Assembly: GCA_022845955.1 (NCBI GenBank)
Contig: AP025576.1
Coordinates: 5,394,001 to 5,458,000 of the forward strand
Source: Lachnospiraceae bacterium
GTDB lineage: Bacteria; Bacillota; Clostridia; Lachnospirales; Lachnospiraceae
Reading direction: 5' to 3'
Length of the DNA: 64,000 nt
The translations under genes and the position numbers were made by a program. Shown here one piece after another: positions 5,112 through 32,926 of this stretch. The notes beneath the pieces were generated by a model that was given only the letters and a program-made list of their open reading frames with translations, did no database searches and was not told the DNA's origin. Position 1 is the first letter of the stretch. Each line of letters starts with the position of its first letter.

Positions 5112-5396
5112 ACCCTGCTCCTGTTCTCCTTATACATCCGTTTCCTGACTGTCTATATCTTACCAGGCAAAGCTTAAAGAACAGCACGGTAATTTCTAAA
5201 TATTTCTTTAACAAAACTGATATTTTCACTTAAATAAGTTCCCTTACCACAGTCGTTTTTTGTTACTGTCTGAAGTATAAAACCAAATATAATATTGAAA
5301 AAATGGGGAAAATTGAATATAATGCTCCTGTAACCATAGAGAAACCGGCGGCCGCCCGCCGGACAAGTGACATAATTATTTTACAGGAGAGAAGAA

Positions 5397-5861
5397 ATGG
5401 AAAAGAAAAACAACATTCTGAAAATCGCATCCTTTATTCTGATTGCGTTTGCCGCAATTGCCCTTGTTATATCGGTAATCAATGTTACCAAAACGCTGGG
5501 CCAGATGAATAACATGGATGCGGCAACACAGGCTGCATTGGACAATGCTGTTGCCGCCAATGCCGGAAGCGGGGTATCCGCCGATATGGCAGTAGGTCTG
5601 GTAAGCGGTATCGCCTATGTAACGCTTGCAATCACGGTAATCTTCAATGTGTTGAAAATTATCATCGGCATACTGGGAATTAAGAAATCCGAAGTGATGG
5701 GAACCAATAACTTCTTTATGATATGGGGTATTATCTTCCTCGTTTTCGGTGTTTTCGGCCTGGCAGGCATCATGTCCCTGCTTGGTTTCTGCAATCTGAT
5801 GGCGGGTATTGTAGCTCCCCTTCTTTTCATCATCTTTGCAAAGCAGAAGAAAGCGGCCTGA
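5397..5861 (+). CDS. Small hypothetical four-helix membrane protein
   Basis: A 154-residue hydrophobic protein not assigned to a named family. A basic N-terminus (MEKKNN) leads into a first membrane segment. A short Ala/Asn-rich loop (about residues 38-62) follows, and then three further membrane helices to the end (…LLFIIFAKQKKAA). The ribosome site (AGGAGAG) is good and a strong hairpin terminator lies 53 bases after the stop, so it is a monocistronic gene. A TATAAT sequence at about 5289-5294 may be its -10 box. No catalytic motif is visible. Confidence 0.7.
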   Translation: MEKKNNILKIASFILIAFAAIALVISVINVTKTLGQMNNMDAATQAALDNAVAANAGSGVSADMAVGLVSGIAYVTLAITVIFNVLKIIIGILGIKKSEVMGTNNFFMIWGIIFLVFGVFGLAGIMSLLGFCNLMAGIVAPLLFIIFAKQKKAA

Positions 5862-25873: not shown

Positions 25874-26134
25874 CTAATCGTCATAATGTCCCCGACACGA
25901 TATTATTTCCAATACTCCGTTGCTAATACGATAAACAAAACGATTTGTGTCATCAATATGCCTACTCCAAAATCCACTCAACTCACCTTTCAATGGTTCG
26001 GGCTTGCCTATACCATCAAAATACCCTCGCTCTATATCCTTTAACAAGGCATTGATACGTTTCAGAGTTTTCCTATCCTGCATCTGCCAGTAGAGATAAT
26101 CGTCCCATGCCTCATCAAACCATACTTTCTTCAT
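25874..26134 (-). CDS. yoeB: YoeB/Txe-family mRNA interferase toxin
   Basis: An 86-residue RelE-fold toxin. The sequence FDEAWDDYLYWQMQDRKTLKRI, EPLKGELSGFWSRHIDDTNR and the C-terminal IISCRGHYDD match YoeB; the Glu, Arg, His and final Tyr are the ribosome-dependent RNase residues. When free it cleaves mRNA in the ribosomal A site. Its ATG overlaps the antitoxin stop by four bases (ATGA), so translation is coupled. The partner is a RelB/DinJ-type antitoxin rather than YefM. Confidence 0.92.
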   Translation of the reverse strand: MKKVWFDEAWDDYLYWQMQDRKTLKRINALLKDIERGYFDGIGKPEPLKGELSGFWSRHIDDTNRFVYRISNGVLEIISCRGHYDD

Positions 26135-26388
26135 TCACCCTCTACCTCAATTGGCTCATGCTCTACACCTTTTCCAGCATTAAGGGCGGAAATACCACGC
26201 CGTAGGTGCGCCATATTGCTTTCGGAATAGAACGGGTCAGCAGATAATTCAAAAGGTATACGCCGCTCTCTGGCAACTTTTTTTAAAAAGATATTTATTG
26301 CCGCTGACATACTTATACCAATATCATCAAAGGTTTGCTCTGCGCCACGCTTAACGTCATCATCAACACGCAAACTAATCTGTACCAT
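26131..26388 (-). CDS. RelB/DinJ-family antitoxin
   Basis: An 85-residue antitoxin. The N-terminal ribbon-helix-helix reads VQISLRVDDDVKRGAEQTFDDIG and GISMSAAINIFLKKVARER; the acidic C-terminus (HEPIEVEGE) would wrap the toxin. The start at 26388 follows AAGGAGTG and is preferred to the longer frame starting in the -35 region. It should neutralise the downstream YoeB protein and repress the shared promoter through the palindrome overlapping the -35 box. Confidence 0.9.
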   Translation of the reverse strand: MVQISLRVDDDVKRGAEQTFDDIGISMSAAINIFLKKVARERRIPFELSADPFYSESNMAHLRRGISALNAGKGVEHEPIEVEGE

Positions 26389-26413
26389 AAAATCACTCCT
26401 TCCTTGTGCTTTT

Positions 26414-26464
26414 ATTATACTACATTCAGAAGCAACATACAAGCATTTTTATATACATATGCTT
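26414..26464 (-). promoter_or_regulatory. Promoter and palindromic operator of the toxin-antitoxin pair
   Basis: On the minus strand TTGTAT (26437-26442) and TATAAT (26414-26419) are 17 bp apart. AAGCAT…ATATGCTT (26441-26464) is an inverted repeat touching the -35 box, as expected for autorepression by a ribbon-helix-helix antitoxin. Confidence 0.7.
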
Positions 26465-29047: not shown

Positions 29048-30607
29048 CTATTCGCCGTAATCCTCCATATACAGGTAATCCACCTCACAGCCGGTATATT
29101 CGATATAGGAATTTCCGGCCGTCTTACCAGCGTTATCTATTACCTTTTTCAGCTGCGCTTCCTCCATTCCTCCTTTTCCGAATACACGGTCGATCTCTTC
29201 CTTCACCGCCTGTGTCACCGCTTTCAGGAAGGCATCCCGGGCGCTTACGGTAAGCTTATCCGCATCCAGGATACGGTAGGTGAAGCTGTAATACCCCTCT
29301 GCCATCTGTACCACCATCTTGTCTCCGAATACGTCCTCCTCCCTTGATGATTCAACCCGAACCTCATAAGAAGGATCCACCTGTTTTTGGGAATACAGTT
29401 CTCTCTGGCGTGCATAGTATTCATCCTGGGAGGCCCGGACTGTTGTACGGAGGAACTCCGCATTCCCGTCCGTATCCTCAAGATGCTCCATGACATAATC
29501 ATAGGCATCATAAAAATCTTCTTTTTCCTCCTCATAGCCGTTGAATACCGCATTGATTTTCCGGTTAAATTCCGCTATGGACATTTCTTCATAGTCCGGG
29601 AATTTCAGCTCATTCATGACAATCTCGTACTGCTTCGCCGGATCCACAGACTTTTCCTCTTCTGTGTCCTCATCCCAATCTTCGGTCTTTTCTTTATCAT
29701 ATACATCATCCCAGTAATAAGAAAGTTTCTTGCCGCCCTCCCATACCAGCTGTCCGTCCAGAGCCTTCAGGATACGCTCCAGCTCCCCATCCGCCGCTTT
29801 TTCCATGGCTTCTTCCTTCTGCAGGTCCGCCGGAGTCTGTTTTTGCAGGAAAGCCTGCATTTTTTCATCCACACCTTTCAGGATGCTGTCCCGCTGGGCC
29901 ACGGTTACCTTCTGTTCCTCCGGAATCCGGTAATCATAGGAATAATCCGCATAGCCTCCGGACAGGAATTCTTTATCCCCGAACACATCTCCATAGGTTT
30001 CCAGAAAAGCTTCTCCGCTGTGCCATGGATTTTTCTGTCTCTGACAGACTCCGTAATGCTTTCTTTCACATTCGTCCCAGGTATTAGAAAGAGTACCATA
30101 TACAAAATCCGCAACCGGATCCGTATCCGCCAGAGAGGAATAAACACGCTGGAGAACTTCTTCCGCTTTATGGAAGGTTTCCTCATCCTCCCAGTCCATA
30201 ACCATGCGGTTGAACTCTGCAACACTGCTGTTTTCGTATCCCGCAGTCTGCCAGGAAAGGATTTGTTCATAATCTTCTTTGGTATATTTATTGGTGCCTC
30301 TCCACCATCCGTAGCGTGATCTGCCGGATTGAAAGGAATCACAGCTGCTGTCCGAAGTTGCTTCCCCTTCCCCCGCCGATGCGGATTCTGTTTCCGTGCC
30401 TGCCTGTAAAGCGGTTTCTGCTGCCTCCTGCGGGGAATCCTGCGCTTTTGTATCCGCTACGGCATCCCCCTGCGTCTTTGTGTCCGCTGCGGCATCCCCT
30501 TCCGATGTTTTGGGGCCGCAGGCCGCCAGCAGAACAGTCAGGAGGATAACCGCGGGAAGTGCCGCTTTCCGTGACTTCTTCCTCCCCATTAGCTTTCTTA
30601 TCTTCAT
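29048..30607 (-). CDS. Lipoprotein with two copies of a 'SIAEFNR' domain
   Basis: A 519-residue protein with a lipoprotein signal peptide; the lipobox LLAAC gives Cys30. An Ala/Thr/Glu-rich linker reaches to about residue 100. Two related domains follow: domain 1 has SVAEFNR (128-134), DVFGD (207-211) and YRIPEEQKVTVAQRDSIL (226-243); domain 2 has SIAEFNR (343-349), DVFGD (425-429), YRILDADKLTVSARDAFL (444-461) and TGCEVDYLYMED (505-516). The same domain forms the ectodomain of the M56 protease encoded two bases upstream. It is anchored outside the membrane. I know no named family for the domain; a ligand- or inhibitor-like role beside the M56 sensor is inference. Confidence 0.8.
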   Translation of the reverse strand: MKIRKLMGRKKSRKAALPAVILLTVLLAACGPKTSEGDAAADTKTQGDAVADTKAQDSPQEAAETALQAGTETESASAGEGEATSDSSCDSFQSGRSRYGWWRGTNKYTKEDYEQILSWQTAGYENSSVAEFNRMVMDWEDEETFHKAEEVLQRVYSSLADTDPVADFVYGTLSNTWDECERKHYGVCQRQKNPWHSGEAFLETYGDVFGDKEFLSGGYADYSYDYRIPEEQKVTVAQRDSILKGVDEKMQAFLQKQTPADLQKEEAMEKAADGELERILKALDGQLVWEGGKKLSYYWDDVYDKEKTEDWDEDTEEEKSVDPAKQYEIVMNELKFPDYEEMSIAEFNRKINAVFNGYEEEKEDFYDAYDYVMEHLEDTDGNAEFLRTTVRASQDEYYARQRELYSQKQVDPSYEVRVESSREEDVFGDKMVVQMAEGYYSFTYRILDADKLTVSARDAFLKAVTQAVKEEIDRVFGKGGMEEAQLKKVIDNAGKTAGNSYIEYTGCEVDYLYMEDYGE

Positions 30608-30609
30608 GT

Positions 30610-32304
30610 TCAGTAATCCTCTCTTTCATATACTTCGAAATCAAAGACTTCACAGCCGGTGAAGCTGATTTTATCATTGGTAATCTTTTCTCCTTCGTTT
30701 TGCAGTTTTTCCTGCATTTCCTGCTGTGTGGCATCTTTTATCCCATCCGATTCCAGCATATCCCGGGCCGCCTGCATGACTTTCTGAAGAAATGCATCTC
30801 TTTCCCCTACCGTAAGATTATCCTGATCCAGGATACGGTAGGTGAATTCATAATCCATCCAGATCTGTCCGGCTTCCACGCTGTCCCCGAACACATCCGC
30901 CATGGTTACCAGCTCCGCCGTGGCTGAAAAGCTGGGATCCTTTCTCACTCCGGAATAAACCTCATCCACACGGCTTTGGTATTCTTCCCGGGAAGCCGGT
31001 ATGGTATTGCGCAGGTACCCTGCATTGGGGTCCGTGACGGGCAGATTGGACACCACGGAATCATAAAGATAATAAAGGGCTCCGTCTTCAGCGTCATCCT
31101 CTTCCATAATCTTGTTTATGGTACGGTTGAATTCCGCTATCGACATTTTTTCATAGGCTTCGGGTTTGACAGCGCTAATCAGCTGATCATACTGTTCCTG
31201 CGTATATCCGTCCATATACCCTTCTTCTTTCCAGGAATCCCTTACATCCCATACATAGTCCATTCCGGCAGGCAGCGCTTTCTCTTCGCCGTCTCCTTCC
31301 TCCCCCTCTTCTCCGTTGTTTTTCACCAACTGGTTTTCCTCAAGATTCCGACGGACCGATCCGGCTTGTTTTTCCATCGCCGAAGTGGCGAACAGGATTA
31401 TAACAGCGCATACGATCACCAGGGCGCATACAATACCTGCAACCGTCAGTTTCTTGGCCTTCATGATAGCATCGATCCGCTCCTTCAGGGCATTCTTGCT
31501 GAAGCTGGAGGAAAGAGGGGTCAGGTAGGTGCGCTTTTCTTCCATTTCCAGAAGCGCCAGGGCATAGGAAGGGCAGGACTGGATTCCATACTGGCGGATT
31601 ACCGCCTCATCACAGGCCAGCTCCAGATCCCGGTTGGACAGAATATACATGACCCAGACCAGGGGATTGAACCAATGGACACACAGCATGGCCGCAAGCA
31701 GCCACTTCGTAAGGGCATCAAACCGGCGGATATGGGACATTTCATGGGCCAGTATGAACCCCATGGTCTCTTCATCCCTCCAGTCCGCATCCGCGGGCAG
31801 CAGGATTACCGGCCAAAGAATCCCATAAGTAAGAGGCGACTCTATTCTGTCCGAACAGCGTACCTGTACCGGCCTGCGCAGCCGGTGTTCCTCTATCCAT
31901 TCTTTGGCAAAGGGGTGTTCCACAGGCAGGGAGGCGGCATATATCCGGCGCCCCCGCAGATGCATGACCAGAATAGCAAGTGCCAGCAGGGCAGCGCCCC
32001 CTGTCCAAAACAGCAGCCAGGGTGACAGGGCCGACGCTGAAGCGGCCTGCGCCGCATTCTCCGAAAGAAGCAGGCCGGGACGCCGCCAATTCTGACCGGC
32101 TCCCCGGATAGCCCCCTGCCCCACTGCGGTATAAACACTCACCGGGGAAGGAATGCGCACCGGCAGAATCAGACAGAAGAAAGCCGCTCCCCACAATGCC
32201 AGAAAAGCTGTCTTCGGCAGCCGGTTCACTGCCAGCGCCCTCACTATAATAATTACCCCTATCATCACTGCACCGCTTATACTCATTTCAAGCAACGTTT
32301 GCAT
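30610..32304 (-). CDS. M56-family (BlaR1/MecR1-like) sensor metalloprotease with SIAEFNR ectodomain
   Basis: A 564-residue membrane protease. The N-terminal part has the BlaR1 layout of membrane helices, with the zinc site HEMSH at 187-191 and a further ligand in DLELACDEA (Glu228). A last membrane helix lies near 290-308. The extracellular C-terminus is not a penicillin-binding domain: it has SIAEFNR (388-394), DVFGD (470-474), YRILDQDNLTVGERDAFL (489-506) and TGCEVFDFEVYE (549-560), as in the following lipoprotein. By analogy with BlaR1, ectodomain sensing would activate the protease to inactivate the BlaI repressor encoded upstream. Confidence 0.88.
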   Translation of the reverse strand: MQTLLEMSISGAVMIGVIIIVRALAVNRLPKTAFLALWGAAFFCLILPVRIPSPVSVYTAVGQGAIRGAGQNWRRPGLLLSENAAQAASASALSPWLLFWTGGAALLALAILVMHLRGRRIYAASLPVEHPFAKEWIEEHRLRRPVQVRCSDRIESPLTYGILWPVILLPADADWRDEETMGFILAHEMSHIRRFDALTKWLLAAMLCVHWFNPLVWVMYILSNRDLELACDEAVIRQYGIQSCPSYALALLEMEEKRTYLTPLSSSFSKNALKERIDAIMKAKKLTVAGIVCALVIVCAVIILFATSAMEKQAGSVRRNLEENQLVKNNGEEGEEGDGEEKALPAGMDYVWDVRDSWKEEGYMDGYTQEQYDQLISAVKPEAYEKMSIAEFNRTINKIMEEDDAEDGALYYLYDSVVSNLPVTDPNAGYLRNTIPASREEYQSRVDEVYSGVRKDPSFSATAELVTMADVFGDSVEAGQIWMDYEFTYRILDQDNLTVGERDAFLQKVMQAARDMLESDGIKDATQQEMQEKLQNEGEKITNDKISFTGCEVFDFEVYEREDY

Positions 32305-32339
32305 ATTATCCTCCTTATGTGACTATGGTGTTGCTGTTT

Positions 32340-32418
32340 ATTTCCGCGGGCAACGAGCCAAACGGATGCACTCGCATAGAACCGAAGGTTCTATTATCCG
32401 CTTGGCGACTGCCGCGAG
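32340..32418. repeat. Palindromic intergenic repeat, longer copy
   Basis: CGCGGGCAACGAGCCAAACG faces CGCTTGGCGACTGCCGCG around an inner hairpin AGAACCGAAGGTTCT. The design matches 16659-16702. Immediately right of it, GTCAAATCCCC faces GGGGTATTTGAC at the end of the BlaI gene, so most of the BlaI-M56 spacer can fold. Confidence 0.5.
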
Positions 32419-32483
32419 GGTCAAATCCCCATACACATTAGTGTATTGCGCTTGCTGCGTAACAAGTTTTATGCCCTGTCAGC

Positions 32484-32858
32484 TCACTGTGGGGTATTTG
32501 ACTTCCAATTTTTAATCCGTTCCTTCATTCGTGTGATCTCATCCTGTGACAGCCGTTTGCTTCCCAGCAGGGATGCGACAAGCAAGTCCGCTGATCCCTC
32601 GAAATTACGCTGTATCAGCTCTTCCGTTTCCTGTTCCTGCACGCGTTCCCTGCTTATCAGCGGGTGGCAGATGAAACCCGGCTCCCGTCTTTCAACGGCT
32701 TCCTTTTCCACACATTTGCGGATGATGGTATAGGTGGTGGTTTTACTCCAGCCCACCTTTTTATTGAGCCGCTCCGCAATCTCCTTTGCACTCAGCTCCC
32801 CTTCGTCCCATAAGCATTCCATTACCCGACGTTCCGAATCAAATAATTTACCAATCAT
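32484..32858 (-). CDS. BlaI/MecI/CopY-family repressor
   Basis: A 124-residue winged-helix repressor. Features are LFDSERRVMECLWDEGELSA, the recognition helix region KVGWSKTTTYTIIRKCVEK and the C-terminal dimer helices (ETEELIQRNF…). In BlaI the cleavable bond lies between DNA-binding and dimer parts. The start at 32858 follows GGAGG, inside the longer frame beginning at 32891, which would overlap the operator. Its promoter carries two TACTCCAGTA palindromes, so it should repress itself together with the M56 protease and lipoprotein genes. Confidence 0.9.
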   Translation of the reverse strand: MIGKLFDSERRVMECLWDEGELSAKEIAERLNKKVGWSKTTTYTIIRKCVEKEAVERREPGFICHPLISRERVQEQETEELIQRNFEGSADLLVASLLGSKRLSQDEITRMKERIKNWKSNTPQ

Positions 32859-32875
32859 ATCTTCAACCTCCATTT

Positions 32876-32911
32876 TACTCCAGTAGAACATATTGTCATT
32901 CTACTCCAGTA
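32876..32911 (-). promoter_or_regulatory. Two BlaI-type operators (TACTCCAGTA)
   Basis: The palindrome TACTCCAGTA occurs at 32876-32885 and 32902-32911, 26 bp apart. The distal copy overlaps the -10 box and the proximal one covers the leader, matching the paired TACT…AGTA operators of Bla/Mec systems. Confidence 0.82.
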
Positions 32912-32926
32912 AAACAGAAGTGTCAA
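32898..32926 (-). promoter_or_regulatory. Promoter of the BlaI-M56-lipoprotein operon
   Basis: On the minus strand consensus TTGACA (32921-32926) and TAGAAT (32898-32903) are exactly 17 bp apart. Confidence 0.85.

Follow-up and report, generated by a model that had tools for sequence, protein, structure and literature searches.

A BlaI-M56 operon of a Lachnospiraceae bacterium encodes a sensor-type domain shared by the protease and a partner lipoprotein

We analyzed a 64,000-nucleotide stretch from a gut bacterium of the Lachnospiraceae (GenBank assembly GCA_022845955.1, contig AP025576.1, positions 5,394,001 to 5,458,000 of the forward strand; hereafter the window), in which a three-gene operon on the minus strand (29048-32926) encodes a BlaI-type repressor, a BlaR1-like M56 metalloprotease and a lipoprotein (Table 1). 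The coordinates, the gene order and the gap of two bases between the M56 stop and the lipoprotein start, as given in an initial annotation made from the sequence alone, agree with the open reading frame (ORF) coordinates, and in a Pfam scan none of the three genes was a beta-lactamase, as had also been stated there. A spacer of 179 bp (32305-32483), longer than its counterpart in Eisenbergiella tayi, separates blaI from the M56 gene; its only matches in the window and in nine further stretches of the genome were 24 bases long.

Table 1. Features of the operon (window coordinates) and of related loci (coordinates within the labeled locus or contig)
Feature	Coordinates	Strand	Basis or remark
-35 box TTGACA	32921..32926	-	read from sequence; same promoter architecture in six genomes
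-10 box TAGAAT, overlaps operator 1	32898..32903	-	17 bp from -35; kept in relatives
Putative BlaI operator 1, palindrome TTTTACTGGAGTAGAA	32899..32914	-	kept in type A relatives
Putative BlaI operator 2, TTCTACTGGAGTAAAA	32873..32888	-	26 bp from operator 1
BlaI-type repressor gene	32484..32858	-	PF03965 (Penicillinase_R) 3.5e-25; ORF opens at 32891
BlaR1-like M56 metalloprotease, 564 aa	30610..32304	-	PF05569 (Peptidase_M56) 1.1e-45, residues 3-280
M56 ectodomain, single domain copy, residues 356-564	30613..31239	-	BLASTP, profile comparison, structure model
Lipoprotein, 519 aa, lipobox LLAAC, Cys30	29048..30607	-	lipobox by motif
Lipoprotein N-terminal domain copy, residues 97-304, lipN group	29696..30319	-	BLASTP, tree, profile comparison
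Lipoprotein C-terminal domain copy, residues 314-517, lipC group, nearest to M56 copy	29057..29668	-	BLASTP, tree, profiles
Lipoprotein-like subtilase with twin-operator promoter	L095 / G000:C1:2018084-2019501; promoter 2018084-2018137		E. tayi ortholog L108
RR-HK-lipoprotein operons (response regulator, histidine kinase)	L054 4725-8809; L069 4982-7923; L070 6407-11416; L161 3576-6570		lipoprotein carries domain

In an alignment to Staphylococcus aureus BlaR1 (8exp), the M56 protease carries the residues HEMSH (187-191), Glu228, Asp232 and Arg276, and its LSSS/F aligns with LSHS/F of 8exp, which places a putative autocleavage position at Ser267-Phe268, in the loop before the last transmembrane (TM) helix, as in BlaR1. 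TM-like segments were seen by hydrophobicity at residues 8-26, 33-51, 96-114 and 288-306. In agreement with the initial annotation, no penicillin-binding sensor was found at the end of the protease: the Pfam scan gave no transpeptidase family, the BlaR1 equivalog model (blaR1_generic) scored 92 bits, with a cutoff of 400, and matched residues 97-313 only, and nothing in Pfam exceeded the curated cutoff for the ectodomain or the lipoprotein. Among the 17 M56 proteins compared that carry the ectodomain family described below, HEXXH was present in all, and a Phe stood at the matching place of the autocleavage loop in 16 (unclear in L072), preceded by Ser in eight.

The promoter (TTGACA, 17 bp, TAGAAT) is near-perfect; it had been called perfect, which holds for the -35 box and not for the -10 box, which is one base off consensus. 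The two operators noted earlier upstream of BlaI are present as two exact copies of TACTCCAGTA (32876-32885 and 32902-32911) within the putative operators. With one mismatch, TACTCCAGTA has four sites in the window, a number also reached by nine of 100 shuffles; what argues for operators is therefore less the 10-mer by itself than the finding that the sites come as a conserved pair. The promoters of operons with the same architecture (type A, below) have in common TTGACA-N6-operator overlapping the -10 box and a second operator 26 bp further. BlaI start probably lies at the inner Met (Met12) at 32858 and not at the first ATG, because the first ATG sits at the operator and it is the inner Met that corresponds to the start of the E. 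tayi protein. The window BlaI contains Asn96-Phe97 (ORF numbering), near the cleavage position of staphylococcal BlaI; an excerpt of PMC9834060 gives the cuts as Asn101-Phe102 in BlaI and Ser283-Phe284 in BlaR1. The operon thus has both BlaI and M56 genes and, at its own promoter, the BlaI-type palindromes by which BlaI-M56 signaling systems in the broad sense are recognized. Judging by the conserved parts of its protease and operators, it is very likely a BlaR1-type switch.

The M56 ectodomain and the lipoprotein share a domain that occurs once in the former and twice in the latter. In BLASTP, the ectodomain matched the C-terminal half of the lipoprotein with 127 bits (41% identity over 185 residues) and the N-terminal half with 72 bits (32% over 174), and the two halves matched each other with 58 bits (34% over 134). 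In profile-profile comparisons, the three domain groups were related with probabilities of 99.6-100%. The sequence blocks on which the initial annotation had based its claim of a shared domain were found in the M56 ectodomain at residues 388 (SIAEFNR), 470 (DVFGD), 489 (YRILDQD) and 549 (TGCEV). In the lipoprotein, they stand at 128 (SVAEFNR) and 343 (SIAEFNR), 207 and 425 (DVFGD), 226 and 444 (YRI), and 505 (TGCEV); the statement that the same blocks occur twice was thus correct for the second copy and slightly generous for the first, which is without TGCEV. These comparisons indicate that the similarity between sensor and lipoprotein is genuine homology, far beyond chance, and the possibility raised earlier that it is not significant did not hold.

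Genome counts for this domain are lower bounds, as few candidates were scored per genome, and the searches at family, order and phylum level are samples. Of the 397 genomes in the family sample, 16, the window genome among them, had the domain by a profile of the three window copies (E up to 0.001), and 17 by a profile of a further copy type, gamma (see below; E up to 1e-5); the two lists combined comprise 20 genomes. With a 19-row profile, five of 392 genomes of the order sample and two of 398 of the phylum sample were positive, the window genome included each time. A scan of named sequences gave six loci, including those of E. tayi, Faecalicatena orotica and Clostridium sp. D33t1. One positive genome, G1099, belongs to the class of the window but lies outside its order.

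The architectures of 23 domain-bearing loci were surveyed, and eight further labels (the L161-L168 additions) came from a later scan. In type A, BlaI and an M56 protease with one copy are followed by a lipoprotein with two; this order, whose conservation the initial annotation had proposed to check, is conserved in five species (the window, L051, L052, L053 and L065), with a sixth, decayed locus (L080). At L052 and L065 the lipobox was not picked up automatically, and the protein starts look secreted or lipoprotein-like by eye. In type B, BlaI accompanies an M56 protease in which two copies are fused, and the lipoprotein is absent (L055, L056, L066, L067, L068, L074, L075, L076 and L079). In type C, the M56 protease has one detected copy, with no lipoprotein in the stretch (L071, L072 and L077; the BlaI of L071 was seen in the promoter comparison and is absent from the architecture listing). 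In type D, a domain protein occurs with no M56 protease in the stretch (L054, L069, L070, L073 and L078). The later additions comprise L161 (type D), L165 and L167 (type B), L166 (type C) and the fragment loci L162-L164; L168 repeats L052. M56 homologues lacking the lipoprotein in the stretch, one half of what the initial annotation had named as speaking against its reading, were found at 12 of the 23 loci (nine of type B, three of type C). Two loci show further features: in the L071 protease, an ectodomain segment of about 250 residues that precedes the beta copy (residues 384-632) had no domain match, and L075 (6540-11575) holds two BlaI-M56 pairs that lie close to each other in opposite orientation, one with an alpha-beta ectodomain and the other with no detected copy.

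In a tree of 46 domain copies (one of 47 was left out for length), the lipC and M56 copies of type A formed one clade (support 99/98), inside which the two kinds were only partly resolved, and the lipN copies formed a separate clade over the five species (100/100). Each of the nine type B proteases has one alpha and one beta copy. The type D lipoproteins of L054 and L070 have an alpha, a beta and a third, gamma, copy, and those of L069 and L073 have gamma alone; the copy of L078 is a long lone branch, weakly beta-like. At least three changes between the labels M56 and lipoprotein are forced by well-supported branches, and six occur on the best tree, indicating that the same domains moved between the protease and lipoproteins. 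Profile-profile comparison tied six sets of copies, defined by us, together with probabilities of 96.9-100%. These results indicate that the domain is a portable module used in three wirings: BlaI-M56 with a lipoprotein, a tandem-fused M56 protease, and a lipoprotein behind a response regulator (RR) and a histidine kinase (HK).

For the third wiring, genes for an RR and a HAMP-HisKA-HATPase kinase directly precede the gamma lipoproteins of L054, L069, L070 and L161, which are all four of the full gamma loci with more than 1 kb of readable upstream sequence; at L073 the contig ends 114 bp upstream of the lipoprotein. No kinase was found at the fragment loci L163 and L164 or at L078, and at L162 (genome G041) a gamma-like remnant with stop codons (about 5306-5404) lies beside a BlaI-M56 pair. 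The kinase of L161 reads in two frames, and at L070 a small two-gene pair stands between kinase and lipoprotein. Profile comparison detected no shared domain in the kinases of the three gamma loci tested (L054, L069 and L070). These operons possibly represent a new family of two-component systems with an accessory lipoprotein. At L161, LanFEG-like ABC transporter genes (128-2454) lie upstream of the RR-HK-lipoprotein genes; the best match of the transporter was TIGR03740, below cutoff, with a weakly MutE-like permease. A lantibiotic-immunity reading of these genes was set aside, as such genes were noted at only one of the four kinase loci.

The initial impression that the sensing domain is new was borne out by the family searches, in which no sequence family of Pfam, NCBIfam or PDB matched significantly. 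Among 19 copies scanned against Pfam and NCBIfam, the best single stray matches had E-values of 0.0073 and 0.0078, a PDB profile search with the 19-row alignment gave no matches up to E 5, and a profile search with the gamma-copy alignment reached a best E-value of 0.049. Two candidate families were rejected, PdaC (a weak stray match in two of 19 copies, best E 0.27) and, by sequence, Band_7 (one of 19, E 0.12). An AlphaFold2 model of the ectodomain from 19 sequences (pLDDT 91.4, pTM 0.87) predicts a helix-rich domain with three long strands, in the order helices, long beta-hairpin, two helices and final strand. A model of the last 430 residues of the lipoprotein from four sequences (pLDDT 84.8, pTM 0.73) has the same elements twice. 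Foldseek returned nothing at E ≤ 0.001 for either model against PDB or for the ectodomain against viral models (best E 0.018). VIA-align superimposed approximately residues 101-208 on the SPFH domains of prohibitin and stomatin (Z up to 9.8, rmsd 2.6 over 92 residues) and the C-terminal part of the domain on FliL (Z 8.0), and barely covered the N-terminal helical half (approximately residues 1-100). Since models without a clear match typically reach a best Z of 7-8 and these values are only somewhat higher, the likeness of the C-terminal part to stomatin/SPFH domains is only suggestive.

A second promoter with twin operators lies far from the operon, before a gene for a subtilase of 428 residues with a lipobox-like start (PF00082, 7.9e-9). 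Its Asp, His and Ser residues, which we take to be catalytic, align with those of subtilisins, the Ser stretch weakly. The window's own twin-site pattern, searched first, occurred in the window only. The subtilase promoter was then reached with a single-operator pattern that had been written before the gene was known; besides the operator matched, it holds a TTGACA and, at a distance of 26 bp, a degenerate second one. The promoter of the E. tayi ortholog (78% identical), read afterwards, likewise combines TTGACA with two operators, here spaced by 29 bp. A 42-base twin pattern with up to three mismatches occurred in all seven genome entries searched (of which G1099 and G1119 are one genome), twice in the window genome of 7.29 Mb and once in each of the others, and nowhere in the reversed control. 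The pattern TTGACAN6TTYTANNNNANTAGAAT without mismatches gave eight sites in six genomes, namely the six operon promoters and the two subtilases; with two mismatches it gave 21 sites, one of them just 5' of a subtilase remnant in G004, against 0-2 per genome in reversed controls.

By eye, both subtilase genes lie between the same neighbors, a gene of 154-156 aa and a glycosidase-like gene (453 aa and at least 396 aa), with ABC-transporter genes inserted at this neighborhood in the window genome. The subtilase was found in three of 10 genomes searched, intact in two (Eisenbergiella) and as a 79-residue remnant (L109) in G004, a third genome of the same genus. In G004 (L080, G004:C84, 6937-8342), the operon has kept its promoter, operators and BlaI and has lost most of the M56 gene and half of the lipoprotein gene, so that the sensor operon and the subtilase are both broken. 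These observations suggest that the circuit probably also controls the distant surface subtilase gene in Eisenbergiella. In searches for remote targets of type B and related systems, the extra sites looked at belonged, as judged by eye, to an M56 fragment (G284 C121), to another BlaI-M56 operon (G461 C111) and to a place with three mismatches and no clear context (G1121 C19).

From the homology, the architectures, the catalytic and cleavage-site residues and the twin-operator promoters at both loci, we infer a switch of the BlaR1 kind that senses something other than penicillin and would, when induced, yield a surface protease and a further protein that binds the sensor's cue; we give this reading as a whole a probability of about 0.5. 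An extracellular cue, by our guess a peptide or an envelope molecule, would bind the M56 ectodomain and activate the cytoplasmic metalloprotease, which would clear its Ser-Phe autocleavage loop and cut BlaI. The twin operators would thereby be freed, and transcription would rise for blaI, the M56 gene and the lipoprotein gene and, in Eisenbergiella, also for the distant subtilase. The induced lipoprotein, with its two sensor-type domains, would capture the same cue at the surface, sequester it and damp the signal, and the subtilase would act as the beta-lactamase does in Bla systems, by destroying the cue or its source. In the Mec system, according to an excerpt of PMC7593790, sensor and effector (PBP2a) likewise share ligand (penicillin) binding.

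Several observations weigh against this switch or its outputs. Asn-Phe is present in three of the five intact type A repressors (window, L051 and L053) and is Asn-Tyr in the other two, and all nine type B repressors have Ile/Val-Tyr at this place. A single-operator pattern derived from type A before the subtilase was seen gave four sites against three in the reversed control, that is, the control rate; two of the four were the operon's own, one lay before the subtilase, and one (1671809) at the 3' end of a 233-aa ORF. The twin pattern, with its spacing of 26 bp, misses the E. tayi subtilase promoter because the operators there are 29 bp apart. This pattern was written after the window subtilase promoter had been seen, and the -35/operator pattern after both, so that they test only the scarcity of other matching places. 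The subtilase was not found in seven of the 10 genomes, including those of the type A species F. orotica, G261 and Clostridium sp. D33t1, and is therefore not an obligate output. For type B and related systems, where 11 of 13 genomes matched (reversed control, two of 13), no comparable remote target was found. G004 is a draft of 150 contigs, the subtilase operators could be the target of a different BlaI encoded in that gene's genome, and the sequence of the lipoprotein fits a decoy and a co-receptor alike.

The initial annotation had read the lipoprotein as a ligand, decoy or co-sensor of the protease, or both proteins as binders of the same cell-wall or peptide cue. M56 proteases without the lipoprotein and lipoproteins beside kinases with no detected copy make binding of an outside cue, and not self-binding, the simplest common property of the domain; a common cue fits both observations, homotypic binding as the common function is rendered less plausible by the many loci that hold one side only, and the role as ligand of the protease is weakened. 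SPFH and FliL folds oligomerize. As a co-receptor, the lipoprotein would be needed for activation, capturing the cue and handing it on to the protease ectodomain, perhaps through assembly of the like domains with each other. This role, which we consider rather unlikely, is consistent with the M56-lipoprotein adjacency in five species, with the SPFH/FliL-like Z of 8.0-9.8 and with the position of the gamma lipoproteins directly after the HK genes at the four readable loci, comparable to the lipoproteins co-encoded with kinases in sae and cse. However, the fold match exceeds the usual best Z of unmatched models only somewhat, nine M56 proteases with two copies and three with one detected copy have no lipoprotein in the stretch, and SaePQ and CseA, encoded together with kinase systems, have negative effects (excerpts of PMC8774646 and PMC6767563). 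If the lipoprotein instead were itself the ligand of the ectodomain through the like domains, with the signal lying in its amount, its lipidation or its cleavage, for which the subtilase might be responsible, the common clade of lipC and the type A ectodomain (99/98) and the placing of a further putative surface lipoprotein, the subtilase, under the same operator type would be accounted for. The domain-bearing M56 proteases with no lipoprotein nearby and the lipoproteins beside kinases without a detected domain make this quite improbable.

A lipoprotein acting outside signaling, as a pure effector that binds a peptide antibiotic in the manner of LanI immunity proteins, would also sit behind the shared promoter, and the immunity lipoprotein NisI likewise has two like domains (excerpt of PMC4828448); the transporter genes at L161 point in the same direction. 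Yet they were noted at one of the four kinase loci, no search aimed at bacteriocin genes having been made, and the NisI domains are described in that excerpt as a seven-stranded beta-sheet, unlike the helix-rich domain with three long strands modeled here. Overall, we regard this alternative as unlikely. Ordinary duplication, which would have left the ectodomain and the lipoprotein as paralogs with separate tasks and no present link, receives support from at least one old duplication, the lipN copies of the five species standing in a clade of their own (100/100). It appears quite improbable, however, given the shared promoter, the joint decay in G004 and an operon that has persisted in five species, of which one belongs to another order than the window.

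The preferred reading, a switch that induces a second binder of its own cue and a surface protease, can be extended to a broader view, which we hold only tentatively and consider doubtful: the domain family would be exchanged between two unrelated chassis, M56/BlaI and HK/RR, in some cases fused to the receptor and in others borne by a lipoprotein, and in Eisenbergiella it would run a defense-like circuit whose sensor, surface binder and cue-destroying surface subtilase mirror BlaR1, PBP2a and BlaZ, against a proteinaceous threat instead of a beta-lactam. To our knowledge, the M56 systems worked out so far are beta-lactam sensors. A sensor domain with a defined putative operator, a candidate second target and a same-domain partner makes ligand and output directly testable, and, since the domain has been exchanged between M56 and kinase systems, its ligand can be approached from a second, independent side. 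BlaI-M56 systems, including their varied ectodomains, are already known. New are the domain family, its duplication into the partner lipoprotein, its exchange with two-component systems and the candidate second target gene; among open PubMed Central papers (titles and abstract starts) on the ectodomains of BlaR1/M56 proteins, on BlaI-like regulons and on BlaR1 in Eisenbergiella, nothing on the domain or the operon was found. Three findings go beyond the initial annotation, namely M56 proteases with tandem-fused copies, the two-component wiring and the lipoprotein subtilase gene with a twin-operator promoter of its own. Elsewhere in the window, two small overlapping genes (25874-26442) form a putative toxin-antitoxin-like pair, YoeB/RelB-like by eye.

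The likeness to Bla/Mec that the initial annotation had seen in the layout is supported by the BlaI and M56 families, the Ser-Phe and the adjacent repressor. Like BlaR1-BlaI and MecR1-MecI, the system has HEXXH...E, the Ser-Phe autocleavage position, an adjacent BlaI with Asn-Phe and twin palindromes at its own promoter. It differs from them in that no penicillin-binding sensor was found, no beta-lactamase or PBP2a lies in the operon, the ectodomain is another one and its domain is duplicated in a partner lipoprotein, and a subtilase is a putative output. The window genome has nine M56 loci, and the other eight (L057-L064) are BlaI-M56 pairs. Their ectodomains carry DUF4825 with Big_14, DUF4097, RCC1 and DUF3048 in four cases and no assigned domain in the other four, and the shared domain was not found in their 13-kb stretches. 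The type D loci resemble SaePQRS and sigE-cseABC in that a lipoprotein is co-encoded with an RR and an HK, a likeness of gene layout, and differ in that their domain also serves as an M56 ectodomain; the window operon has no kinase. NisI and SpaI are alike in carrying two like domains on a lipoprotein, and NisI appears to differ, going by its description in the excerpt cited above and the predicted secondary structure of the window domain. With the SPFH/Band 7 and FliL families, the modeled C-terminal part of the domain gives a suggestive structural alignment, without a significant sequence match.

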